From assembly GCA_900469625.1 (NCBI GenBank), contig UBXV01000002.1, positions 1-64,000 on the forward strand: a stretch of 64,000 nt of DNA, given 5' to 3'. Positions 2,493 through 15,047 of the stretch are shown one piece after another. Positions within the stretch are counted from its first letter, which is position 1, and the number at the start of each line of letters is the position of its first letter. Origin of the DNA: Hyphomicrobiales bacterium (GTDB lineage Bacteria; Pseudomonadota; Alphaproteobacteria; Rhizobiales; Rhizobiaceae). The translations under genes were made by a program, and so were the position numbers. Under the pieces are notes generated by a model that was not told the DNA's origin, did no database searches, and saw only the letters and a program-made list of their open reading frames with translations.

Positions 2493-5054
2493 TCAGCTGC
2501 GCGGTTTTGAATTTTCCGGGTCGTAGAGCGGCTTGTAGCCAACGCCAGCGACTTCGACCGGATACGTCTCGGCGAAGTATTCGACGTTGAGCTTGCGGCC
2601 GACCTGGCAATGCGACCAGGGCAGATAGGCAAGCGCGATGTTCTTGCCGATCGTGGGGCCAAAGGCGATCGAGGTGGTGTAGGAGCGCCGGCCGAGTTCG
2701 TCGACGAGCACAGAGCCCGTTTCCGGGTCCATGACCGGCAGGCTGCCGACCGGGTAACGCTTGACGCCGTTCTTGTCGGTATTCTCCGTCAGGATGAGCG
2801 TGCAGAGCATGGCCGGCTGGTGCTCGCGGGCCTTGTACTCCAGGTGCTTGGCCTTGCCGCGGAAGTCGACGTCCTTCACCTTCGGACGCGCCAGATCGGC
2901 CTCGATCAGGTTGTACTGGGTGAGAAGATCGGCGTTCTGCAGGCGCAGGCTCTTTTCCATGCGGCGCGAGTTCGCATAGGTTTCGACGCCGAAAGCCATG
3001 ACGCCGGTCGCGCGCAATGCGTCCCAGACGGCGAGGCCGTCCTCGTATTTCATGTGCAGTTCCCAGCCCTGTTCGCCGACATAGGAAATGCGGAAGGCGG
3101 TCACGGTCTTGCTGGCGATCTCGATCGGCTTGATCGCGGCGAAGGCGAAGTTCTCGATGTCGAGACCCGCGGGATCGGCAACCACCTTCTTCAGCGTTTC
3201 GCGGGCGTTGGGGCCCCAGATGCCGATGGTGATGAACTTTTCCGAGACGTCGGTGATGGTGACGTCGAGGCCGCGGTCCTCGGCCACCCGGCGCATGTAC
3301 TGGAAGTCGCGCGGGCCGGCATCGGCGCCATTCACGAGACGGCAGCGATCGGCCATGCGGAAGACGGTGAAGTCGGCGCGCACCATGCCTTCGTCGTCGA
3401 GGAAGTGGGTATAGATGCCCTTGCCGATGTTGGCGTCGCCGCCGATCTTGGCGGCGCACAGCCATTCGAGCAGCGCGACGTGGTCAGGGCCCGCAATGTC
3501 GACCATGTGGAAATGCGAGAGGTTGACGATGCCGCAATCCTCGCTCATCGCCAGATGCTCGGCGTTTGAAACGCGCCAGAAATGGCGGCTGTCCCACTCG
3601 TTCTCTCGGACCGGAACCCGGTCGCCGTATTTTTCGAGCAGATGCTCGTTGGCGGCGTAGCCGTGGGCGCGCTCCCAGCCGCCGAGTTCCATGAAGTAGC
3701 CGCCGAGCTCCTTCTCGCGCTCATGAAAGGGCGAGCGCTTGACGTTGCGGCCGGTCCCATAGGGCTCGCGCGTGTGCACCGCCGGATAGTAGATCTTCTG
3801 CGCCGCCTCGAAGCAGCGGCCCTCGATGAATTTCTCCTCGAGCTGGTGCGGGTAGAAGCGCGAATAGTCGATCGAGTTATGGTCGATCTCGGTGCGCCCG
3901 TCCGTCATCCAGTCTGCGATCAGCTTGCCGTAGCCGGGGCCGTCCTTCACCCAGATGGCGACGCAGTACCAGAGGCCGCGCACCTTCTGGCTCTCGCCGC
4001 AGGAGGGACCGCCGGCGGCCGAGACCTGCAAGAGACCGTTGAAGGAATGGCCTTCATTGTAGCCGAGTTCGCCGAGGATCGGCGTCAGTTCCATGGCGCG
4101 CTCGAGCGGCTCGATGATCTGTTCCATATCGAGGTCGCGCTGCGAGGGCGACAGGCGCGCCTCGTGCTTTTCAAGAATGTTGCGCGGATGGCAGAGGCGC
4201 GGGTTGGTGGTCTCGTAGTAGCCCCACTCGATCTGGCCGCCTTCGGTGGTCTTAGGATCGCCGGTGTCGCGCATATAGGCGGAGTTGCCCTGGTCGCGCA
4301 AAAGCGGAAAGCCGATTTCCTTGCCGGTGCCTTCGAATTCATTGTACGGGCCGAAGAAGGTGAGCGGATGGTCGACCGGCATGACCGGCAGGTCCTCACC
4401 GACCATTTCGGCGATCAGGCGGCCCCAGATTCCGGCGCAGACGACGACATGGTCGGCCATGATTGTGCCGCGGTGGGTGACGACGCCCTTGATGCGGCCG
4501 CCCTCGACGATGAGCGACGTTGCCGGCGTGTTGCCGAAGATCTGGAGCTTGCCGGATTTCTCGGCCGCATCGACCAGCTTGCCGGCAACCGTCTGCGAGC
4601 GCGGGATGACCAGGCCGGCATCCGGGTCGAACATGCCGCCCATCACCTGATCTTCCTCGATCAGCGGGAACATCGCCTTGATTTCCGCCGGCGAGACATA
4701 GTGGGCGCGGGTGCCGAAGGCCTTGGCCGAGGACAGCTTGCGCTTGATCTCTTCCATCCAGACGTCGTCGCCGGTGCGCGCGACTTCCAGGCCGCCGATA
4801 CGGGCGTAGTGTCCCATCTTTTCGAAGAAATCGATCGAATACTGCGTCGTCCAGACCGAGAGATAATCGTGACTGGTGGTGTAGCAGAAGTCCGACGCAT
4901 GCGCCGTCGAGCCGATATCGGTCGGGATGCCGGATTTGTCGATACCGACGATATCGTCCCAGCCGCGCTCGATCAGGTGATGCGCGATCGAGGCACCAAC
5001 GATGCCACCCAGCCCGATGATTACGACCTTCGCCTTTTGCGGAAACTCTGCCAT
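2493..5054 (-). CDS. FAD-dependent dimethylglycine/sarcosine dehydrogenase family protein
   Basis: The 853-aa protein has two halves. The N-terminal DAO domain begins with a dinucleotide fold (GLGGIVGAS, about 14-22) and contains GSTAHAS at 48-54. The His at 52 matches the residue that covalently binds FAD in DMGDH-type enzymes. An FAO-type linker follows, then GcvT domains (about 430-845) that bind tetrahydrofolate and collect the methyl group as methylene-THF. The length matches mitochondrial and rhizobial DMGDH-like proteins. It probably demethylates an N-methylated amino acid from glycine-betaine breakdown. The exact substrate (dimethylglycine, sarcosine or another N-methyl compound) cannot be read from the sequence. 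The ATG at 5054 has AGGG nearby. It is transcribed alone, with a repeat-bearing upstream region. Confidence 0.85.
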   Translation of the reverse strand: MAEFPQKAKVVIIGLGGIVGASIAHHLIERGWDDIVGIDKSGIPTDIGSTAHASDFCYTTSHDYLSVWTTQYSIDFFEKMGHYARIGGLEVARTGDDVWMEEIKRKLSSAKAFGTRAHYVSPAEIKAMFPLIEEDQVMGGMFDPDAGLVIPRSQTVAGKLVDAAEKSGKLQIFGNTPATSLIVEGGRIKGVVTHRGTIMADHVVVCAGIWGRLIAEMVGEDLPVMPVDHPLTFFGPYNEFEGTGKEIGFPLLRDQGNSAYMRDTGDPKTTEGGQIEWGYYETTNPRLCHPRNILEKHEARLSPSQRDLDMEQIIEPLERAMELTPILGELGYNEGHSFNGLLQVSAAGGPSCGESQKVRGLWYCVAIWVKDGPGYGKLIADWMTDGRTEIDHNSIDYSRFYPHQLEEKFIEGRCFEAAQKIYYPAVHTREPYGTGRNVKRSPFHEREKELGGYFMELGGWERAHGYAANEHLLEKYGDRVPVRENEWDSRHFWRVSNAEHLAMSEDCGIVNLSHFHMVDIAGPDHVALLEWLCAAKIGGDANIGKGIYTHFLDDEGMVRADFTVFRMADRCRLVNGADAGPRDFQYMRRVAEDRGLDVTITDVSEKFITIGIWGPNARETLKKVVADPAGLDIENFAFAAIKPIEIASKTVTAFRISYVGEQGWELHMKYEDGLAVWDALRATGVMAFGVETYANSRRMEKSLRLQNADLLTQYNLIEADLARPKVKDVDFRGKAKHLEYKAREHQPAMLCTLILTENTDKNGVKRYPVGSLPVMDPETGSVLVDELGRRSYTTSIAFGPTIGKNIALAYLPWSHCQVGRKLNVEYFAETYPVEVAGVGYKPLYDPENSKPRS

Positions 5055-5445: not shown

Positions 5446-5479
5446 TGTTGACATTGCACAACAGTCTTTGGCAAATGTC
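5446..5479. promoter_or_regulatory. Putative operator/promoter, copy A, for the sugar transport operon
   Basis: The 34-bp element starts TGTTGACA and ends TGGCAAATGTC. It contains an imperfect inverted repeat (TGACAT at 5449-5454 against ATGTCA at 5475-5480, with TGC/GCA inside). A second copy with the same length and ends, 23 of 34 positions identical, lies at 12615-12648 beside the SorC-type regulator gene. The TTGACA may also be a -35 hexamer. I infer that it binds the regulator encoded at 11559-12539. Confidence 0.6.
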
Positions 5480-5619
5480 ATCGCCGACCGCATTGGGTCG
5501 GCCGTTGCGGCAGCCGGGCGCGTGAACAGCCCCGGCGCACGATCAAGGAGCATGCGCCAGACGCAGGCTGGGAGCCATGATCGCGCCGGCTCGCCAACGA
5601 GCAGGGTGGAGGGTGTGTC

Positions 5620-6606
5620 TTGGAATTTCGGGTTGATCGCCAGTTGGCATTCTTGGCCGTCGTCAACGTTGCCGTCCTGGCTGCGGGCGGTATTCTGGTC
5701 GGCGCCAGCTTCCTCGACATCTACAACCTGCAATCCATGGCCGGCCAGGTACCGGAGCTGGGGCTTCTCGCGCTCGGCGTGATGCTGGCGATGATTTCCG
5801 GCAACGGCGGTATCGACCTCTCGGGCATAGCCCTCGCAAACCTTTCGGGAGTCGTCGCTTATCTGGTGCTGCGCGATACGGTTTCGGCCGACGATGCGCC
5901 GCTGCTTTTCAGCTGGAGCTTTGCCGCGATCGCGCTCATCGTCGGCCTTGCCGGAGGTATGCTGAACGGCTTCCTGATTTCGAGCGCCGGATTGACGCCA
6001 ATCATCGCCACGCTCGGCACGCAATTGTTCTTTACCGGCATTGCCATCGCCTTCACCAATGGTTCTGCGCTCGGCCTCGGCTACATCGAGCCGCTCGATG
6101 CCTTCGGCAATACGCCGGTTCTGGGCGTGCCGCTCTGCTTTGCCCTTTTCCTGGCGATCGCGCTGATGCTGGGCGGCGTCTTGCGCTACAGCCCATTCGG
6201 CCTGCGGCTCATGCTGCTCGGCAATAATGCCAAGGCTGCGCGTTATGCCGGCATTGCGGAAAAACGAATCCTGTTTCTGACCTATACCACCTGCGGCCTG
6301 CTTGCCTCGGTCGCCGGCATCGTGATTGCAGCGCGGACCTCGAGCGTGAAATGGGACTACGGCAATTCCTACGTGCTGATCGCCATCCTTATCGCGGTCA
6401 TGGCCGGTGTTCGCCCGGAGGGTGGCTATGGCCGGGTAATCTGCGTCGTGCTGTCGGCGACGTCGCTGCAGATCCTGTCGAGCCTGTTCAACTTCATGGA
6501 CATCTCCAACTTCTTCCGCGACCTCGCCTGGGGCGTGCTGCTGCTGGTCTTTCTCGCGACATCCGGCTTCGACGCCAAGGCCTGGGTCAGGGCATTGCGC
6601 CGCTGA
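5620..6606 (+). CDS. Sugar ABC transporter permease (CUT2/RbsC-like)
   Basis: The 328-aa membrane protein has about 8-10 hydrophobic segments and the family features of ribose-type permeases: LALGVMLAMISGNGGIDLS near residues 48-66, then LLGNNAKAARYAGI in the loop that contacts the ATPase. It forms the inner-membrane channel for a monosaccharide or related compound together with the permease at 9466-10500. The start is a TTG at 5620, chosen because GGTGGAGGG (5605-5613) sits about 7 nt upstream and no ATG fits. It is the first gene of the operon behind the putative operator at 5446-5479. The C-terminal half is conventional and I see no damage. Confidence 0.87.
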   Translation: MEFRVDRQLAFLAVVNVAVLAAGGILVGASFLDIYNLQSMAGQVPELGLLALGVMLAMISGNGGIDLSGIALANLSGVVAYLVLRDTVSADDAPLLFSWSFAAIALIVGLAGGMLNGFLISSAGLTPIIATLGTQLFFTGIAIAFTNGSALGLGYIEPLDAFGNTPVLGVPLCFALFLAIALMLGGVLRYSPFGLRLMLLGNNAKAARYAGIAEKRILFLTYTTCGLLASVAGIVIAARTSSVKWDYGNSYVLIAILIAVMAGVRPEGGYGRVICVVLSATSLQILSSLFNFMDISNFFRDLAWGVLLLVFLATSGFDAKAWVRALRR

Positions 6607-6686
6607 CCCCCAAGTTCCAGGGCCGGCGAGACGCCTTCGCACGCCGGCCGATCTGTCAAAATTCGAAGGTTCTTTGGGAGGAATGC

Positions 6687-7688
6687 ATGCTTGCCATTCG
6701 TAAACTCGCTGCCTGCGCCGTCGCGCTCGGAGCCCTGACTGCGACCACGGCCGCCATCGCCGAGGAAAAGCCCAGCATCGTGACCGTGGTGAAAGTCACG
6801 GGCGAAAACTGGTTCACCCGCATGAACGAAGGCGTCGACGCCTATGGCAAGGACAATCCCGGCGTTGCCACCAGCCAGGTCGGTCCCGGCAAGGCCGACG
6901 CCGCCCAGCAGGGCCGGCTGATCGAAGACCTCGTTGCCAAGAAGGTCGCCGCCATCGCCGTCGTGCCGATGGATGCGTCCGCGCTCGAGGGCGTGCTGAA
7001 GCGCGCCAGCCAGCGCGGCATCAAGGTCATCACTCACGAAGCCGACAACATGAAGAACACGCTCGTCGACATCGAGGCCTTCGACAACAAGGTCTTCGGC
7101 GCGCGCTTCAACGAGAAGATCGCCGAATGCATGGGCAAGTCCGGCAAGTGGACGTCCTTCGTCGGCTCGCTCGGCAGCCTGACGCACGTTCAGTGGGCCG
7201 ACGGCGGTTCGGAAAATGCCAAGAAGTATCCGGAGATGGAACTGGTCTCGGAGAAGAACGAATCCTTCAACGATGCCAACCGCGCCTATGAAAAGGCGCG
7301 CGAGATCCTGCGCAAGTATCCTGACATCAAGGGCTTCCAGGGCGGTTCGGCGATCGACGTCATCGGCATCGGCCGTGCCGTCGAGGAGGCCGGCCTGCAG
7401 GACAAGACCTGCGTGTTCGGCATCGGCCTGCCGAAGGATACCGGCTCCTACCTGGAATCGGGTGCCGTCGACGGCATCAGCTTCTGGGATCCGAAGGATG
7501 CCGGCTACGTCATGAACAAGGTCGCCGACATGGCGCTGAAGGGCGAGGAGCTCAAGGACGGCATGGACCTCGGCGTTCCCGGCTACGACAAGGTCATCGT
7601 CAAGAAGGGTGCGGGCGATGGCGTGATCGTCGTCGGTCAGGCCTGGGTCGACGTCGACAAGTCGAACTACGCCAAGTACCCGTTCTGA
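6687..7688 (+). CDS. Periplasmic sugar-binding protein (LsrB/RhaS-like)
   Basis: The 333-aa protein carries a signal peptide (about 1-24, cleaved near AIAEE) and the two-lobed type 1 periplasmic-binding fold. Residues VVKVTGENWFTRMNEG and VAAIAVVPMDASALEG are typical of the RbsB/LsrB/RhaS group. The hinge segment GAVDGISFWDPKDAGY resembles LsrB and rhamnose-binding proteins more than ribose-binding RbsB. It delivers the ligand to the two permeases. The start is fixed by GGGAGGAA at 6676-6683. It lies 80 nt after the first permease and is followed by a strong hairpin. The ligand is unknown: a deoxy- or ketose sugar, or an AI-2-like furanosyl compound, is plausible. Confidence 0.87.
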   Translation: MLAIRKLAACAVALGALTATTAAIAEEKPSIVTVVKVTGENWFTRMNEGVDAYGKDNPGVATSQVGPGKADAAQQGRLIEDLVAKKVAAIAVVPMDASALEGVLKRASQRGIKVITHEADNMKNTLVDIEAFDNKVFGARFNEKIAECMGKSGKWTSFVGSLGSLTHVQWADGGSENAKKYPEMELVSEKNESFNDANRAYEKAREILRKYPDIKGFQGGSAIDVIGIGRAVEEAGLQDKTCVFGIGLPKDTGSYLESGAVDGISFWDPKDAGYVMNKVADMALKGEELKDGMDLGVPGYDKVIVKKGAGDGVIVVGQAWVDVDKSNYAKYPF

Positions 7689-7704
7689 TCGGGTAAAGCG
7701 GACA

Positions 7705-7738
7705 GCGATGCCGGACCCGTCCACGGGGCCGGCATCGC
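7705..7738 (+). promoter_or_regulatory. Intercistronic hairpin after the binding-protein gene
   Basis: A perfect 10-bp stem (7705-7714 with 7729-7738) can be extended inside the loop by CCC/GGG. It lies 17 nt after the binding-protein stop and 145 nt before the ATPase start. Such hairpins protect the upstream message and lower downstream expression, which suits the larger need for binding protein. No T tract follows, so full termination is unlikely. Confidence 0.6.
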
Positions 7739-7882
7739 ACGTGGAATGTCGCAAGTGCCCCCGTCGAGCGTAAGTCGGGGGCCAGTGGCAACGGATTAAA
7801 CCTGCTGCGCCACGTCTCCCCGGATCGATGGCGATCGAGATGCCGTGCAGCGGGACACGTTCTTTTTGGTCAGGACAGTGCC

Positions 7883-9469
7883 ATGCAGCTCAAGCACGAA
7901 ACCGGCGCGCCGCCTCAGGGCGGCGAAACCCCCAAGGCCGCTCTGCCCTATCTGGAAATTCGCGATGTCCAGAAGAGCTTCGGCGGTGTTCGCGCGCTGA
8001 AGGGCGTCAGCCTTTCGATCGAACCCGGGCAGATTTATCACCTGATGGGCGAGAACGGCTGCGGCAAGAGCACGCTCATCAAGATCATTTCCGGCGCGCA
8101 GCCGGCTGATTCAGGCGAGCTGCTGATCGATGGCAAGCCGGTCGGCCACCTGACGCCCGTCGCGGCGCTGGCGGCCGGGATCGAGACCGTCTACCAGGAT
8201 TTTTCGCTGCTGCCGAACCTGTCGGTCGCCGAAAATGTCGGATTGACGCAGCAGGTGGTCGCGGCCTCCGGCAGGCTTGCCCGACGACTTGATCTCACAC
8301 AGATGCGCGCGACGGCTGAGCGGGCGCTCGCCGCCGTCAACCTGCCGACGAGCCGCGCCTTCCTGGCGACGCGCACGGATGAATTGCCGATGGCGACGCG
8401 CCAGCTTATCGCCATCGCCCGCGCCATCGCGTCCGATGCCCGCCTCGTCATCATGGACGAGCCGACGACAGCCCTGACCAAACACGAAGTCGACAATCTG
8501 ATCGGCATCGTCGGTCGCCTGCGCGCCAAGGGCGTCGCGGTGCTGTTCGTCACCCACAAGCTTGACGAGTGCAAGGAGATCGGCGGCCGCGCTGTCATCA
8601 TGCGCGACGGGCAGAAGGTCGCCGAATGCGACATTGCCGATCACACCAAGGCCGAACTCGGCTTCTGGATGACTGGCAAGGTTCTCGACGAGGCGCGCTA
8701 TCGCGCCCAGCCGAAGTTCGGCGAGGGTCTGCTTTCGGTCGATGGCCTGTCGCTGAAGGATGCGTTCGCCAACGTCTCGTTTTCGATGCGGCGCGGCGAG
8801 ATCGTCGGCATCACCGGACTGCTGGATTCCGGCCGCAATGAACTCGCCCGTGCCATTGCCGGCGTCGTTCCGGCCGATGCGGGCCGCATCCGCCTCGACG
8901 GCAAGGATGTGACGCCCCGCAAGCCGGCCGACGCGATTGATGCCGGCATCGGCTATGTTCCGGAGGATCGACTTTCGGAAGGTCTCTTTCTCGAAAAGCC
9001 GATCGAGGAAAATATCGTCGTGCCGGTGCTGGACCGCCTGCGCGGTGCCTTCGGCATCCTCGATGGCAGGCGCAGCCGCGATCTGGCCAAGCGCTCGGTC
9101 GAAGACTTGCAGGTGGTCACGCCCGATGTCGCCAACCCGGTGCAGTCGCTGTCCGGCGGCAACCAGCAGCGCGTGCTCATAGGCCGCTGGCTGACCATCA
9201 ACCCCAAGCTTCTGGTGCTGCACGGCCCGACGGTCGGCGTCGATGTCGGATCGAAGGACACGATCTACCGGATCATCCAGCGCCTCGCCGACGAAGGCAT
9301 GGGCGTCATCATCATCAGCGACGACCTGCTGGAGCTGCTGCAGAACTGCGATCGGATCATGGTGATGCGCAAGGGCGAGGTGGTTGAACGCTTCGAGGCC
9401 GAAACGCTGAAGGAAGAGGCGCTCTATCGCGCCCTGGTGGAAGAAACGACTGCGAGGACCGCGCAATGA
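7883..9469 (+). CDS. Sugar ABC transporter, double ATPase subunit (CUT2)
   Basis: The 528-aa protein has two fused nucleotide-binding domains. The N-terminal one has Walker A GENGCGKST (about 56-64) and Walker B LVIMDEPT, with a degenerate signature (LPMATRQL). The C-terminal one has the usual degenerate P-loop (GLLDSGRNEL) and an intact LSGGNQQ signature. Its Walker B reads LLVLHGPT, so both acidic residues of DEPT are replaced. ATP hydrolysis is therefore expected only at the site built on the N-terminal Walker motifs with the C-terminal LSGGNQQ. It energises the two permeases in this operon. The stop overlaps the next start (ATGA), indicating translational coupling. Confidence 0.9.
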   Translation: MQLKHETGAPPQGGETPKAALPYLEIRDVQKSFGGVRALKGVSLSIEPGQIYHLMGENGCGKSTLIKIISGAQPADSGELLIDGKPVGHLTPVAALAAGIETVYQDFSLLPNLSVAENVGLTQQVVAASGRLARRLDLTQMRATAERALAAVNLPTSRAFLATRTDELPMATRQLIAIARAIASDARLVIMDEPTTALTKHEVDNLIGIVGRLRAKGVAVLFVTHKLDECKEIGGRAVIMRDGQKVAECDIADHTKAELGFWMTGKVLDEARYRAQPKFGEGLLSVDGLSLKDAFANVSFSMRRGEIVGITGLLDSGRNELARAIAGVVPADAGRIRLDGKDVTPRKPADAIDAGIGYVPEDRLSEGLFLEKPIEENIVVPVLDRLRGAFGILDGRRSRDLAKRSVEDLQVVTPDVANPVQSLSGGNQQRVLIGRWLTINPKLLVLHGPTVGVDVGSKDTIYRIIQRLADEGMGVIIISDDLLELLQNCDRIMVMRKGEVVERFEAETLKEEALYRALVEETTARTAQ

Positions 9470-10500
9470 CGGACACGACCTTCAACGGGGCAACACCTGA
9501 CGGCAATGATAAGGCGTCGCTTGGATCGGCGTGGCGTTGGCTGCTGCGGCATCCGCCGGTGGTGACCTTCTCGCTGATCGTGCTCGTCTGCCTGGTGGTC
9601 GGCGCGATCAACACGGATTTCTGGCAGGTGTCGAACCTGTTCGACATCCTGCGTGCCTCCGTCGTGCGAGGGCTCTTCGCGCTCGGCGTGCTGGTGGTTC
9701 TCGCCTCCGGTGGCATCGACGTTTCCTTTACCGCCATCGCCGCCTTCGTCATGTACACGGTGACGATGCTGGTGACCAATCTGCTGCCGGGACTGCCGAT
9801 GCCGGTGATCCTGCTGGTGGCGGCCGCCGGCGGCGCCTGCTTCGGCGCGCTCAACGGCCTGCTTGTCCATACGCTCCGTGCGCCGTCGCTGATCGTGACG
9901 ATCGGCACGCAATACGTCATTCGCAGCTTCCTGCTGACCTTCGTCGGCACGGCTCTCTTCATGAACATTCCGGGCTCGATGGAGGCGTTCGGCAAGCTGG
10001 CACTGTTCACACACCAAAGCGCCAACGGCTCGATCTCGGTGTTACCCGCCTTCGTGCTTGTGCTTGCAGTCGCGGCCGTTGTCACCTGGTGGATCCTCGA
10101 GCGCACGCTGATCGGGCGGGCGGTCTATGCCGTCGGCGGCAATGCCGGCATTGCCGAGCGTCTCGGCTACAATCTGCGCACCGTGCACATTTTCGTCTTT
10201 GCCTATGCGGGTCTGCTCGCGGGCATCGCCGGGATCATGCATGTCGCCAGCAACCGGCTTGCCAATCCGTTCGACCTTGCCGGCACCGAGCTCGAGATCA
10301 TCGCCGCGGTGGTACTCGGCGGCGCCCGCATCACCGGCGGCTCCGGCAGCGTGATCGGAACGCTGCTCGGCGTGGTGCTGATCACGCTGGTCAGCAACGT
10401 CCTCATCCTCGTCGGAATTCCGAGCACCTGGCAGCTCGCCATCATCGGCGTCTTCATCGTTCTCGCCGGCACCGTCTTCTCGCTTCGCGCAAGAAGCTAG
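9466..10500 (+). CDS. Second sugar ABC transporter permease (CUT2)
   Basis: The 344-aa inner-membrane protein starts with a 25-residue cytoplasmic tail and has about 8-10 membrane segments. The ALGVLVVLASGGIDVSFTAI segment and the ATPase-contact loop VGGNAGIAERLGY are diagnostic of RbsC-like permeases. With the 5620-6606 product it would form a heterodimeric channel, a layout common in rhizobial CUT2 systems. The start overlaps the ATPase stop by 4 nt. A 54-nt gap leads to the kinase gene, so the five genes are probably one transcript. Confidence 0.88.
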   Translation: MTDTTFNGATPDGNDKASLGSAWRWLLRHPPVVTFSLIVLVCLVVGAINTDFWQVSNLFDILRASVVRGLFALGVLVVLASGGIDVSFTAIAAFVMYTVTMLVTNLLPGLPMPVILLVAAAGGACFGALNGLLVHTLRAPSLIVTIGTQYVIRSFLLTFVGTALFMNIPGSMEAFGKLALFTHQSANGSISVLPAFVLVLAVAAVVTWWILERTLIGRAVYAVGGNAGIAERLGYNLRTVHIFVFAYAGLLAGIAGIMHVASNRLANPFDLAGTELEIIAAVVLGGARITGGSGSVIGTLLGVVLITLVSNVLILVGIPSTWQLAIIGVFIVLAGTVFSLRARS

Positions 10501-10554
10501 GGGCGTTCGGCAATCATCCAGCGGTTACCAATTCAGCAGGGAAGGTTCAAGTGC

Positions 10555-11502
10555 ATGGCGCACGACGTATCTGTAATCGGACTGTACATTCTTGATATTC
10601 TCGGCCGGCCGGTGGACCGGATCCCGTCCGGCGGCAATGTCGAATTCATCGACGAGATCCGCCTGACGGTCGCGGGCACCGCCGGCGGCACGGTCGTGGA
10701 CCTTGCCAAGCTCGGGCTGAACTGCCTGGCGGTCGGTGCGGTCGGAGACGATGAGAAGGCAGACTTCGTGCTCGCCACGCTCGACCGCTTCGGCGTCGAC
10801 ACCTCGCAGATGCAGCGCATTGCCGGCGTGCCGACGTCGGCCAGCATTCTCAACATTCGCCGCAATGGCGAACGGCCGGCGCTGCATGTGCGCGGCGCCT
10901 CGGGGCATTTCGAGGTCCCGGCCGACGCGCGCGAGCGAGTGCTTGCACCGCCGATCGTCCATCTCGGCGGTACGGGGCTGCTCGACCGCATGGATGGCGA
11001 ACCGAGCCGCGTTCTGCTGGAGGAGGCCAAGCGCTTCGGCCGGACGACGACCTTCGATCTCTTGGGCGCCAACGACAAGACGCTGTCGCTGATCCGGCCG
11101 CTCTTCCCCTTTATCGACTACTTCATGCCGTCGGTCGAAGAAGCGATGTTGATCTCCGGTCAGAAGAGTGCCGAGGACGCCGGCCGCTTCTTTGCCGATC
11201 TCGGCGTCAAGCACTGCATCTTCACGCTCGGCGGCGATGGTGTGTGCTTCCTCGATGCGGATGGCAAGAGCCTTAGACTGCCGGCCTTCGAGATCGACGT
11301 CGTCGACACCACCGGCTGCGGCGATGCCTTCAACGCCGGCTTCATCGCCGGGTTGCATCATCGCATGGAGACGGAGACCGCCTTGCGGTTCGCCCAGGCG
11401 TCGGCAGCACTCGTGGCGACGGGCCTGGGGTCTGATGCCGGGATCACCTCGTTCGACGCGACCTGGGATTTCATGAACAAGGCCCGTGTGAAGGCCAGCT
11501 GA
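10555..11502 (+). CDS. PfkB-family sugar kinase
   Basis: The 315-aa cytoplasmic kinase has the ribokinase fold. The N-terminal glycine pair (AGTAGGTVVDLAKLG) corresponds to PfkB signature 1, and DTTGCGDAFNAGF near residue 247 is signature 2, with the catalytic base Asp in GCGD. The start ATG has GGGAAGG 8 nt upstream. As last gene of the transporter operon it probably phosphorylates the imported sugar or its ketose isomer. That would make the substrate for the aldolase domain encoded at 12999-15047. No isomerase gene is present, so the import product may already be a ketose. Confidence 0.88.
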   Translation: MAHDVSVIGLYILDILGRPVDRIPSGGNVEFIDEIRLTVAGTAGGTVVDLAKLGLNCLAVGAVGDDEKADFVLATLDRFGVDTSQMQRIAGVPTSASILNIRRNGERPALHVRGASGHFEVPADARERVLAPPIVHLGGTGLLDRMDGEPSRVLLEEAKRFGRTTTFDLLGANDKTLSLIRPLFPFIDYFMPSVEEAMLISGQKSAEDAGRFFADLGVKHCIFTLGGDGVCFLDADGKSLRLPAFEIDVVDTTGCGDAFNAGFIAGLHHRMETETALRFAQASAALVATGLGSDAGITSFDATWDFMNKARVKAS

Positions 11503-11558
11503 CGCCGGTTGGCGCACGGACCAACTGTTGCCCGATACGCCAACGGGCAACAGATCCA

Positions 11559-12539
11559 CTATCGCAGCAGCATCTCCGCCGTGGCGATGTCGGTGACAAG
11601 GTGCGTGGCATAGCCACCCTTCAACGTTGCGTGGATCGCCGTCAGCTTGCTGGCGCCGCCGGCGACGCACAGGCGCCGCGGCACCTGGCTCAATTCGTTC
11701 AGTTCGATGCCGACCATGCGGTTGTCGAGGTCGCCGCGCACCGGCCGCCCTTCGGCGTCGATGAAGCGGCAGATCAGCACGCCCACGGCACCGCCGGCCT
11801 GATAGGCGTCGATGTCTTCCTGGCCGGTGATGTTGGCCGAGCGGATCAGCGTCTCGGGGCCGATGTCGCCGACGCCGAAGAGGATGATGTTGGAGGAGTG
11901 GATGAGCTCGAACTGCTTGACCAGCACCTGCTCGGCCAGAAGCGCCTGCTTCAGCTCCGGCGTCGACAGCAGGGCGGGGGCGAGGAGGTTGATGCAGCGC
12001 GCGTGAATGCGGCGCGACATCAGCGAGGTGCAGAATTCAGGCGCGAAATCCGGATTGGCGATAGAGCTTCCGGAGACCTGCACCACCGTCAGGCCTTCCA
12101 CAGGCTCGGGCAGCGAGATGCTGTCGGCGACGGCCAGCACCGTGCGGCCCCAGGCAACACCGATCGTGTCGCCCGGCTGCACCATGTCGGCAAGCAGGCG
12201 CGCGCCGGCCTCTCCGAGCCGCTGCACCGGGTCGCCGCTGGTAAGGGCGGGGATGACCAGCGCGCCTTCGAGGCCGAACTTGTTCTTCAGGCGGCGTGCG
12301 ATGCCGGTGCGGACGCCGACTTCGGTGTTGAGGCGAATATTGACCAGGCCACGCTCGCGCGCCTCCTGCAGGTAATTGACGATCGTCGCCCTGGAGACGC
12401 CGAGCATCTTGGCGATCTCGCTCTGGGTCAGCTGGTCGACGTAATAGAGCCACGCGGCCCAGACGACGCCGTCGTCGAATTCCGCGGGCAGGACTATGCC
12501 TTCGCCGACTGCCCGGTTTCCCCGCGCGGTATCCATCAT
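11559..12539 (-). CDS. SorC/DeoR-type sugar-binding transcriptional regulator
   Basis: The 326-aa protein has an N-terminal helix-turn-helix (about 25-65; LTQSEIAKMLGVSRATIVNY) followed by the SorC sugar-binding domain, which is related to ribose-5-phosphate isomerase and binds phosphorylated sugars as inducers (IGVAWGRTVLAVAD, GVGDIGPE). The start is the ATG at 12539, with AGGGGAG just upstream. An extended frame to 12830 has no such support. It converges on the kinase gene (56 nt) and diverges from the aldolase gene. I infer that it controls both halves of the locus through the elements at 5446-5479 and 12615-12648. Confidence 0.87.
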   Translation of the reverse strand: MMDTARGNRAVGEGIVLPAEFDDGVVWAAWLYYVDQLTQSEIAKMLGVSRATIVNYLQEARERGLVNIRLNTEVGVRTGIARRLKNKFGLEGALVIPALTSGDPVQRLGEAGARLLADMVQPGDTIGVAWGRTVLAVADSISLPEPVEGLTVVQVSGSSIANPDFAPEFCTSLMSRRIHARCINLLAPALLSTPELKQALLAEQVLVKQFELIHSSNIILFGVGDIGPETLIRSANITGQEDIDAYQAGGAVGVLICRFIDAEGRPVRGDLDNRMVGIELNELSQVPRRLCVAGGASKLTAIHATLKGGYATHLVTDIATAEMLLR

Positions 12540-12998
12540 CACCTGCTCCCCTGGATTGTCATGGTTTCTCCTGAAGCGGAAAAAGTGTCCGCCGTCAAAC
12601 AAATTTGCCATCCGTGTTGACACATGACACCACATGGTGGCAATTGTCTCGACAATGATTTTGGGAGGCGCCGAGATGCAATGGACGACTATAGGCGCGT
12701 GCAGGCGGGTTGGAAACGAACCCGTGGGCCGAGACCGGCGTGCTGACCTTCGTGCCATTGCAACGAGGCTGCGGCCCGCTCCCGACATGGATTGTAGTTT
12801 CAGGGGCGCGCAGCCCCGAACCGGTGACACAGACGCGGGTCTCGGCCTGCACTCGATCGACGGATAGTGGTGCGTCCTGACGGAGTGGGCGGCACGGTCT
12901 GAGTGTTGCGCGCAGACCGATCGGGGATGGCCGACGACAGGACTTGAATTGAACCCCCCAAGGAAACGCTGCCAAGCGCGGGAAGACAGGAGCCTTTG
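12540..12998. other. Divergent promoter region of the regulator and the aldolase fusion
   Basis: The 459 bp hold copy B of the shared element (12615-12648) and an overlapping inverted repeat ATTGTC-TC-GACAAT (12643-12656). If transcription of the aldolase starts near the element, the leader is about 350 nt. I see no supported peptide gene in it and no convincing riboswitch. Confidence 0.55.
12615..12648. promoter_or_regulatory. Putative operator/promoter, copy B, regulator/aldolase intergenic region
   Basis: The 34-bp element matches copy A (5446-5479) at 23 of 34 positions. The first eight bases (TGTTGACA) are identical, as are TGGCAA and the terminal TGTC. The divergent centre shows that it is not a recent duplication of the whole segment. 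Its right end overlaps the repeat ATTGTC-TC-GACAAT. It lies about 75 bp upstream of the regulator start, which suits autoregulation. Confidence 0.6.
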
Positions 12999-15047
12999 AT
13001 GAAATCCAGATGGTCAGAAACCGAATTCGCCCGGGTCGTCGACACCTATGTCAATGCCGGCGTCAACCGCGACCTTGCGATCCGCACCTATACGACCCGT
13101 CTTCTCGGCTGCGACCCGGAGCTGGTGCTGCATGGCGGCGGGAATACCTCGGTCAAGACCACCTTTACCGAGATGGATGGTTCCGAGGTCGCCGTGCTCT
13201 GCGTCAAGGGCAGCGGCTGGGACATGGGCACGATCGAACCGGCGGGCCTGCCCGCTGTCCGGCTCGAGCCGCTTCAGGCCATGGTCAAGTTTCCTGAGCT
13301 GAGCGACGACGACATGGTGATGCTGCAGCGTCGGTTGCTCATCGATCCCGCAGCGCCGAACCCCTCGGTCGAAGCGATCCTGCACGCCAACCTGCCGTTC
13401 CGCCACATCGACCACACCCATGCCAATGCGATCGTGTCTCTGACCAACCAGTCGCATGGCGAGGATCTGGTGCGCGAGCTGTTCCCGGATTCGATCATTG
13501 TCCCCTATGTGATGCCCGGCTTCGATCTCGCCAAGGCCTGCGACGCGGCGTTCCGCGCCGATCCGGGCGCTGATGGCATGATCCTCTTGAAGCACGGCAT
13601 CTTCACCTGGTCGGAAGATCCGCGCGAATCCTATGAAAAGATGATTGCCGCCATCGACAAGGCCGAACGTCGCATCGCACGCGGCAACCCGCGTCCGTTT
13701 GCCGTCGTCAAGCCGTCAGCGCCGCTCGCAACGGCCGCCGAAATCGCGCCGGTCCTGCGTGGCGCGATCGCCATCGACAGCGGCGTCGAAGGCTGCCCGC
13801 GCCGCTTTGTGCTTGAGCATCGCTCAGGTCCCGAGGTCCTCGACTTCTGCAATGCCGAAAATGTTGCTGACCTGGTGCATCGCGGCAATGCGACACCTGA
13901 ACACGTCATCCACATCAAGCGCTTCGGCGTGGCGCTGCCGGCCCCCGTTGCCGGCGACATGGCGGCCTGGGCCGATAAGGTGCGCGCCGCCGTCGCCGCC
14001 TACAACGACGAGTACCGCGCCTATTTCGAGCGCAACAACGCCCGCGTCGGCGGCATCAAGCGCATGCTCGATCCGATGCCGCGGGTCTTTTACGTGGCAG
14101 GTGTCGGCCTGTTTGCCGCCGGTCCGTCGAAGAAGGCCGCCCGTGTCGGCGCCGATGTTGCCGAGGCGACGATCGCCGTCATCCGCAATGCCGAGGGTAT
14201 CGAGAGCTTCGAGGCGCTGTCGGAGGAGGATCTGTTCGACATCGAATACTGGTCGCTGGAACAGGTGAAGCTGACGAAGCAGGCGGAAAAGCCGCTCAGC
14301 CGGCAGGTTGCCGTCGTCACCGGCGGCGCCGGTGGCCTGGGGCTCGCGATCGCCGAGGCGTTGCACGCCGAGGGTGCTGAAATCGCCCTGCTCGACCTTG
14401 CGGAGGATGCCCTGAAAAAGGAATCCGCTCGTCTCGGCGGCATCGGCCTCGTCTGCGATGTGACCAGGCCGGAGGCGGTCGACGCGGCGCTTGCCGATGT
14501 CGCCAGGCATTTCGGCGGCGTCGACATCGTCATCTCGAATGCGGGTGCCGCCTTCCAGGGCGCTCTGCTGGATGTATCCGAGGACGTTTTCCAGAAAGCC
14601 TTCGCACTGAATTTCTGGGGGCACCACTACATCGCCCGCAGCGCCGTCAGGATCATGAAAGCGCAGAAAACCGGCGGCGCGCTGGTCTTCAACGTCTCCA
14701 AGCAGGCGGTCAATCCCGGCCCCGACTTCGGTCCCTACGGAACGTCGAAGGCGGCACTGATGGCGCTGATGCGCCAATACGCCGTCGAACATGGCGCCGA
14801 CGGCATCACGTCGAACGCCGTCAATGCCGATCGCATCCGCACCGGGCTGATGACCGACCAGATGATCGAGGAGCGCAGCCAGGCGCGCGGCATTTCACCC
14901 GAGAGCTACATGCGGGGCAACCTGGTCAAGCGCGAAGTCACGGCCCGTGATGTCGCAGCCGCCTTCGTCCACCTCGCAAAGGCGCGCACCAGCACCGGCG
15001 CGGTGCTGACCGTCGACGGCGGCAATGTCGCCGCGATGATGCGCTGA
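12999..15047 (+). CDS. Bifunctional class II sugar-phosphate aldolase/short-chain dehydrogenase
   Basis: The 682-aa fusion has an N-terminal class II aldolase/adducin-like domain (about 1-410) with the phosphate-binding HGGGNTSVK, the zinc ligands in HTHANAI and a further His in LLKHGIF. The C-terminal Rossmann SDR domain (about 430-682) has TGGAGGLG, ISNAG, a catalytic Ser in NVSK and the YGTSK pair. The architecture is that of RhaD-type rhamnulose-1-phosphate aldolase/alcohol dehydrogenases. It should split a ketose 1-phosphate into DHAP and an aldehyde, and the SDR part would then oxidise or reduce the aldehyde. The ATG at 12999 (ACAGGAG upstream) is preferred over a TTG one codon earlier. 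No rhamnose isomerase is nearby, so the sugar is unproven. Confidence 0.85.
   Translation: MKSRWSETEFARVVDTYVNAGVNRDLAIRTYTTRLLGCDPELVLHGGGNTSVKTTFTEMDGSEVAVLCVKGSGWDMGTIEPAGLPAVRLEPLQAMVKFPELSDDDMVMLQRRLLIDPAAPNPSVEAILHANLPFRHIDHTHANAIVSLTNQSHGEDLVRELFPDSIIVPYVMPGFDLAKACDAAFRADPGADGMILLKHGIFTWSEDPRESYEKMIAAIDKAERRIARGNPRPFAVVKPSAPLATAAEIAPVLRGAIAIDSGVEGCPRRFVLEHRSGPEVLDFCNAENVADLVHRGNATPEHVIHIKRFGVALPAPVAGDMAAWADKVRAAVAAYNDEYRAYFERNNARVGGIKRMLDPMPRVFYVAGVGLFAAGPSKKAARVGADVAEATIAVIRNAEGIESFEALSEEDLFDIEYWSLEQVKLTKQAEKPLSRQVAVVTGGAGGLGLAIAEALHAEGAEIALLDLAEDALKKESARLGGIGLVCDVTRPEAVDAALADVARHFGGVDIVISNAGAAFQGALLDVSEDVFQKAFALNFWGHHYIARSAVRIMKAQKTGGALVFNVSKQAVNPGPDFGPYGTSKAALMALMRQYAVEHGADGITSNAVNADRIRTGLMTDQMIEERSQARGISPESYMRGNLVKREVTARDVAAAFVHLAKARTSTGAVLTVDGGNVAAMMR

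Follow-up and report, generated by a model that had tools for sequence, protein, structure and literature searches.

A predicted two-half operator repeated at a rhizobial sugar locus and linked to a clade of SorC/DeoR-type regulators

The studied members of the SorC/DeoR subfamily of bacterial transcription regulators bind operators composed of two halves, and do so as tetramers, according to the account in PMC11229326; the same source gives repression as often the primary role of SorC proteins. Here we describe a 34-base-pair (bp) element that occurs twice, on the plus strand, at a sugar transport and aldolase locus of a soil bacterium of the Hyphomicrobiales, and that very probably serves as the operator of a SorC/DeoR-type regulator whose gene (11559-12539, minus strand) lies between the two copies. 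Copy A occupies positions 5446-5479, upstream of transporter and kinase genes, and copy B positions 12615-12648, between the regulator gene and a gene for an aldolase/dehydrogenase fusion. All positions refer to the window, a 64,000-nucleotide stretch comprising bases 1-64000 of a contig of 341,733 bases; the whole genome amounts to 6.54 Mb, and its closest named relatives are Ensifer.

The nearest described parallel is the operator of DeoR at the Bacillus subtilis dra-nupC-pdp operon, where a regulator of the same subfamily is bound as a tetramer to two halves, the left one being ATTGAACAAAATTTCAAT, in a region that overlaps the promoter from -60 to -21 (PMC11229326). The operator described here is a near-symmetric 30-bp dyad, whereas that of DeoR spans 39 bp and is not symmetric (PMC11229326), and the genes predicted to be controlled here are those of a sugar ATP-binding cassette (ABC) transporter, a kinase and an aldolase fusion. 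CggR, which acts at B. subtilis gapA and represents the SorC/CggR type, likewise binds two palindromic half-operators as a tetramer, but has a winged helix-turn-helix (HTH) and an operator at +32 to +77, and responds to dihydroxyacetone phosphate (DHAP) (PMC11229326). A further parallel is MtnR (YjhU) of the Escherichia coli DHAP shunt, which represses a sugar pathway from a locus with kinase, isomerase and aldolase genes (PMC12632272); one relative of the present site (locus L090, below) has an aldolase fusion and genes judged by eye to be mtnK- and mtnA-like as its neighbours. MtnR is called a DeoR-family protein in that source, which gives its recognition sequence as unknown, and the likeness drawn here concerns gene content.

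The element and its regulator

The two copies had been proposed in a first-pass annotation, which saw in them a two-half-site operator with conserved ends and a free centre. Both are present as described, with 23 of 34 positions identical, and their gene contexts are confirmed: copy A ends ∼140 bp ahead of the first permease frame (5620) and copy B ∼350 bp ahead of the aldolase fusion. The underlying unit is a 30-bp dyad of 13, 4 and 13 bp, preceded on one side by TT. Its core spans 5450-5479 in copy A (GACATTGCACAAC-AGTC-TTTGGCAAATGTC, with 9 of 15 pairs complementary) and 12619-12648 in copy B (GACACATGACACC-ACAT-GGTGGCAATTGTC, 11 of 15). The common form is TTGACA-N2-TGnCA-N8-TGnCA-N2-TGTC, whose four subsites make up two halves that are both roughly palindromic in themselves.

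Among 32 distinct aligned sites TTGACA is invariant, the set itself having been chosen on this hexamer. The left inner subsite has T in 22 sites, G in 25 and C and A in all 32; the right inner subsite has T in 32, G in 31, C in 32 and A in 29; and the right outer subsite has T in 30, G in 30, T in 29 and C in 19. Since conservation extends to the inner TGnCA subsites, the free centre of the earlier description shrinks to about 8 bp. The half-sites TTGACA-N2-TGnCA and TGnCA-N2-TGTC are conserved and intergenic, and together have the two-half form of a SorC operator. Match scores elsewhere are given out of 17.

The product of 11559-12539 is a SorC family protein, its C-terminal PF04198 sugar-binding domain (residues 80-326) reaching 199.4 bits where the curated cut-off is 27. 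Residues 15-314 of B. subtilis DeoR (8r7y) align to residues 26-324 of the regulator, and the isolated DeoR DNA-binding domain (7bhy) aligns to residues 26-70; LsrR and the sorbitol operon regulator SorC (2w48) also match over nearly the whole length. The match to CggR covers residues 78-326, which is the sugar-binding domain only. Because DeoR matches over nearly the full length and CggR in this domain alone, sequence comparison places the regulator in the SorC/DeoR subfamily, with a short homeodomain-like HTH and no CggR-type winged HTH. It is a relative of DeoR rather than DeoR itself, since its score of 205.8 bits with the B. subtilis DeoR equivalog NF053881 is below the cut-off of 420. 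Base contacts of DeoR are made by R34 and R39 (PMC11229326), and in our reading of the alignment, with a chain offset of five assumed, these appear to correspond to R50 and N55 here.

Conservation and linkage among genomes

Comparison with relatives, rather than the pair itself, makes what we consider a strong case. In loci taken from named genomes and plasmids, with both intergenic regions aligned, the element forms a conserved island within otherwise diverged sequence, at both places and in two Ensifer clades, whose regulators are 95-97% (near clade) and 77-78% (second clade) identical to that of the window. Site A is present in seven Ensifer orthologues and has been lost from an eighth, and site B is present in all nine orthologues aligned, including the one that lacks site A. 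That locus (L040 10978-11797, Ensifer sp. LC163) lies on a contig without most of the transporter/kinase operon, of which a stub of permease 1 is left; site A is gone, and site B and the aldolase gene are retained, the loss being either a deletion or an assembly gap.

Site A precedes permease 1 in other genera too. Among eight further loci fetched, both sites occur in the same two places and with the same gene order in four (L100, L101, L102 and L104), whose regulators are 57-83% identical to that of the window by local alignment. L103 shows no more of this layout than the regulator/aldolase pair and its site B. The transporter genes of the window are missing from L105 and L106. In L107 (42%) one site lies between the paired regulator and aldolase genes and a second is 3.5 kb away.

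The initial proposal turned on whether the element recurs upstream of orthologous genes in related species, and two pattern scans found it there. Survey 1 covered 61 genomes, including the source genome, at up to one mismatch, with the reversed pattern as control. All 15 genomes with a regulator at least 61% identical to that of the window have the site immediately in front of that gene (coordinates compared by hand). Of the 46 remaining genomes 2 have a match: the one in G027 adjoins a 39% SorC homologue, and that in G044, with a single mismatch, is inside a long coding frame and was treated as chance. The reversed pattern had no match in the 61 genomes. Survey 2 examined 297 genomes of the family, partly overlapping the first set, for a site within 300 bp upstream at up to one mismatch, and found one at 23 of 23 listed regulators that are at least 58% identical. 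None was found at the 37 paralogues with frames longer than 650 codons, a class set by the size of a SorC-DhaK fusion annotated in Roseibium. Conversely, 31 of the 37 distinct sites of this survey precede a listed SorC gene by no more than 300 bp. Another five are 3.5-6.9 kb from one; among these, the site in G113 has a paralogue of fusion size at 2.3 kb as well. The sole unlinked site (G315:C46:35390-35420) is a good match on a contig without a SorC gene at E 1e-60 or better. The reversed pattern gave 2 matches. Because the genomes are related, the counts of both surveys do not represent independent events.

The recognition-helix string SRAT[IV]VN is kept in site-bearing homologues at least 54% identical to the regulator, and the fusion-sized paralogues examined carry SRATVNS or SRASVNT and no site. 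The string is not sufficient for the presence of a site, since it also occurs in L023, L026 and L028, whose best scores are no higher than 10-11/17.

Within the source genome, only copy A (two mismatches) and copy B (none) match the symmetric consensus at up to two mismatches. The first-pass annotation had hoped for further sites of the regulator; no third site exists at this threshold, so the predicted regulon is this locus alone. At up to three mismatches there are 18 distinct sites (A, B and 16 with exactly three) compared with 15 for the reversed control, so that the three-mismatch sites, taken as a group, were put down to background; one AT-rich example (C50:169023) is inside a 610-codon frame. 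Other SorC paralogues of the source genome (L001, L002, L003, L005 and L006) were dismissed as owners of the site, their best upstream matches reaching 10-11/17. In the window itself, the best other match to each copy on the plus strand is its partner (23/34), the next best being 20 for A and 19 for B, and on the minus strand copy B matches itself at 23 owing to its own dyad.

Mode of action and competing explanations

The element is in all probability functional. We have high confidence in a reading in which the 11559-12539 regulator has its operators in copies A and B, would sit on each as a tetramer and would repress until a phosphorylated intermediate accumulates, with TTGACA probably doubling as the -35 box. 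The tetramer, a dimer of dimers, would probably place one dimer on each half. Without sugar, the regulator would repress the transporter/kinase operon through site A and the aldolase/dehydrogenase gene through site B, and a phosphorylated pathway intermediate in the sugar-binding domain would release it. Given the biochemistry of these enzyme families, the succession of a kinase and a RhaD-type aldolase suggests that the effector may be a ketose-1-phosphate or DHAP. The two-half-site operator of the original proposal gains support both from the element at orthologous loci and from the habit of the SorC/DeoR subfamily (PMC11229326).

The hexamer TTGACA lies at 5448-5453 in copy A, where it could be the -35 box of the transporter operon, and at 12617-12622 in copy B, where it could be that of the aldolase gene, both on the plus strand. 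The outer TTGACA probably serves at the same time as the -35 box of each catabolic promoter, so that bound regulator would exclude RNA polymerase. When sites were chosen by the symmetric core alone in 26 loci (with L054, L090, L097 and L107 left out), the two bases just beyond the core, at its end farther from the catabolic gene, were TT in 22 loci, and the mirrored AA occurred in 1. As a dyad does not require such asymmetry and a -35 box would, this favours the -35 role that the first-pass annotation had raised, although asymmetry of the operator itself, of the kind seen in DeoR, could be another explanation. Against the assignment, a clear -10 box at 17 bp after TTGACA was not found in the aligned sites, where the hexamers, read by eye, resemble GCAAAT, GCAATT or TCATTT. 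The sigma-70 -10 region of Sinorhizobium meliloti is described as poorly conserved (PMC3616915).

Other observations also weigh against the operator reading. The pair in the window proves little alone: when the two intergenic regions were put through 300 dinucleotide shuffles, 27 yielded a best pair of at least 23 matches (mean 21.3, maximum 24). Dyad symmetry is not rare either, equalling or exceeding that of copy A in 610 and that of copy B in 36 of the 63,971 30-mers of the window, and these counts led us to reject both pair similarity and dyad symmetry as stand-alone evidence. About one chance match at up to two mismatches is expected per genome (by hand scaling of mismatch combinations), so the weight of site A rests on its position and conservation. 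In survey 2 the site was found at none of three regulators of 48-57% identity, one of which (L106) nonetheless has a match of 15/17, and, among the 40 of 37-47% identity, at only 8. In L090 the site scores better when oriented toward the regulator than toward the aldolase gene, and in L097 it scores 15/17 either way.

The shuffle result speaks in favour of an explanation by chance, or by shared ancestry without function. Such an explanation is scarcely credible in view of the conservation within diverged background, the linkage in 23 of 23 cases and the restriction of such sites to two in 6.54 Mb, both in this locus. That the element is mainly a sigma-70 promoter, with TTGACA followed by a spacer and an incidental dyad, would fit the invariant hexamer (in a set picked on it), the asymmetric TT and the poor conservation of the -10 region in S. 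meliloti (PMC3616915), yet conservation reaches the inner and right-hand subsites, in a stretch that as the spacer of a promoter would be free to vary, and the presence of the site follows regulator type among related genomes; we consider it improbable. Somewhat less remote, but still unlikely, is an activator site from which the regulator or another factor would recruit RNA polymerase. The distances of ∼140 bp (A) and ∼350 bp (B) to the genes and the lack of a strong -10 box would allow a start further downstream, as such a site would permit, but repression is often the primary role of SorC proteins (PMC11229326), and the outer TT is placed relative to the catabolic gene as a -35 box would be. 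Operators of a repressor thus account best for the two copies.

Gene content and exchanged pathways

Profile matches identify the genes downstream of copy A, all on the plus strand, as those for ABC sugar permease 1 (BPD_transp_2; 5620-6606), a periplasmic sugar-binding protein (Peripla_BP_4; 6687-7688), a sugar ABC ATPase (7883-9469), ABC sugar permease 2 (9466-10500) and a PfkB-family sugar kinase (10555-11502). The gene downstream of copy B (12996-15047, plus strand, with an ATG at 12999) encodes a RhaD-type fusion of a class II aldolase and a short-chain dehydrogenase, which scores above two NCBIfam cut-offs for bifunctional aldolase/dehydrogenases. Every NCBIfam match listed for the permeases, the binding protein and the kinase is below its cut-off, as are the best 25 of 187 for the ATPase, and for this reason we leave the transported sugar unnamed.

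The same dyad is found upstream of regulators 57-68% identical to that of the window in Rhizobium, S. meliloti, Agrobacterium and Acidiphilium plasmids, and in weaker form (14/17) in Rhizobium leguminosarum (L047). Six loci of this type are annotated, with gaps in the gene tables of the plasmids. Their divergent gene is in every case given as a glycerol-1-phosphate dehydrogenase or iron-containing alcohol dehydrogenase, and the other genes listed include a HAD hydrolase (5 loci), an FGGY kinase (5) and glpD (3). Five annotated loci and the unannotated relatives L048-L052 carry arrays, in which two copies 32 bp apart are directed toward the catabolic genes and a further copy in the opposite orientation faces the regulator gene, the copies sharing subsites (L048 8897-8979, L050 8863-8945 and L052 8914-8996). 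Roseibium, with a regulator of 54% identity, keeps the transporter gene set of the window and has weaker sites. In L090 (136-5720), a 39%-identical SorC protein lies amid mtnK- and mtnA-like genes (named by eye from translations), an aldolase fusion and an ABC transporter, with a 16/17 site in the regulator/aldolase gap and a weaker one of 14/17 in the transporter gap; this locus is a candidate regulated DHAP shunt.

The shared operator is found beside an aldolase-fusion/PfkB-kinase pathway in the window, a glycerol-1-phosphate dehydrogenase/HAD/GlpD/FGGY-kinase set in Rhizobium, S. meliloti, Agrobacterium and Acidiphilium, and mtnK/mtnA-like genes in L090. All these enzyme families could feed DHAP. 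It is conceivable, though doubtful, that the whole regulator clade has kept one operator code while the controlled pathway was exchanged and, because CggR responds to DHAP as well, that the clade senses DHAP or a ketose-1-phosphate rather than one sugar.

As a gene switch the locus is of an ordinary, well-supported kind, and the novelty seems to lie in the motif that goes with this clade of regulators and in its having persisted while pathways were exchanged. Titles and abstract openings among the matches listed, mostly from non-subscription literature, name no characterised rhizobial member of the group. The motif offers a specific predicted binding sequence for these regulators, by which operators could be recognised beside them throughout the Rhizobiaceae and in certain genera outside that family. 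A further prediction is that the regulator acts locally. Occurrences of the same operator with different pathways would form a natural set for asking which metabolite the clade senses.

Two further features flank the sites. In the near Ensifer clade, the gene for a large FAD (flavin adenine dinucleotide) oxidoreductase/GcvT-type protein (2493-5054) and the transporter operon are oriented divergently; the clade-2 loci fetched gave no match to this protein. Beside copy B and outside its dyad, a second conserved block (12591-12605, minus strand; GCCGTCAAACAAATT as read on the plus strand) is identical in all ten alignment rows of both Ensifer clades, and may hold the promoter of the regulator itself, with TTGACG on the minus strand.

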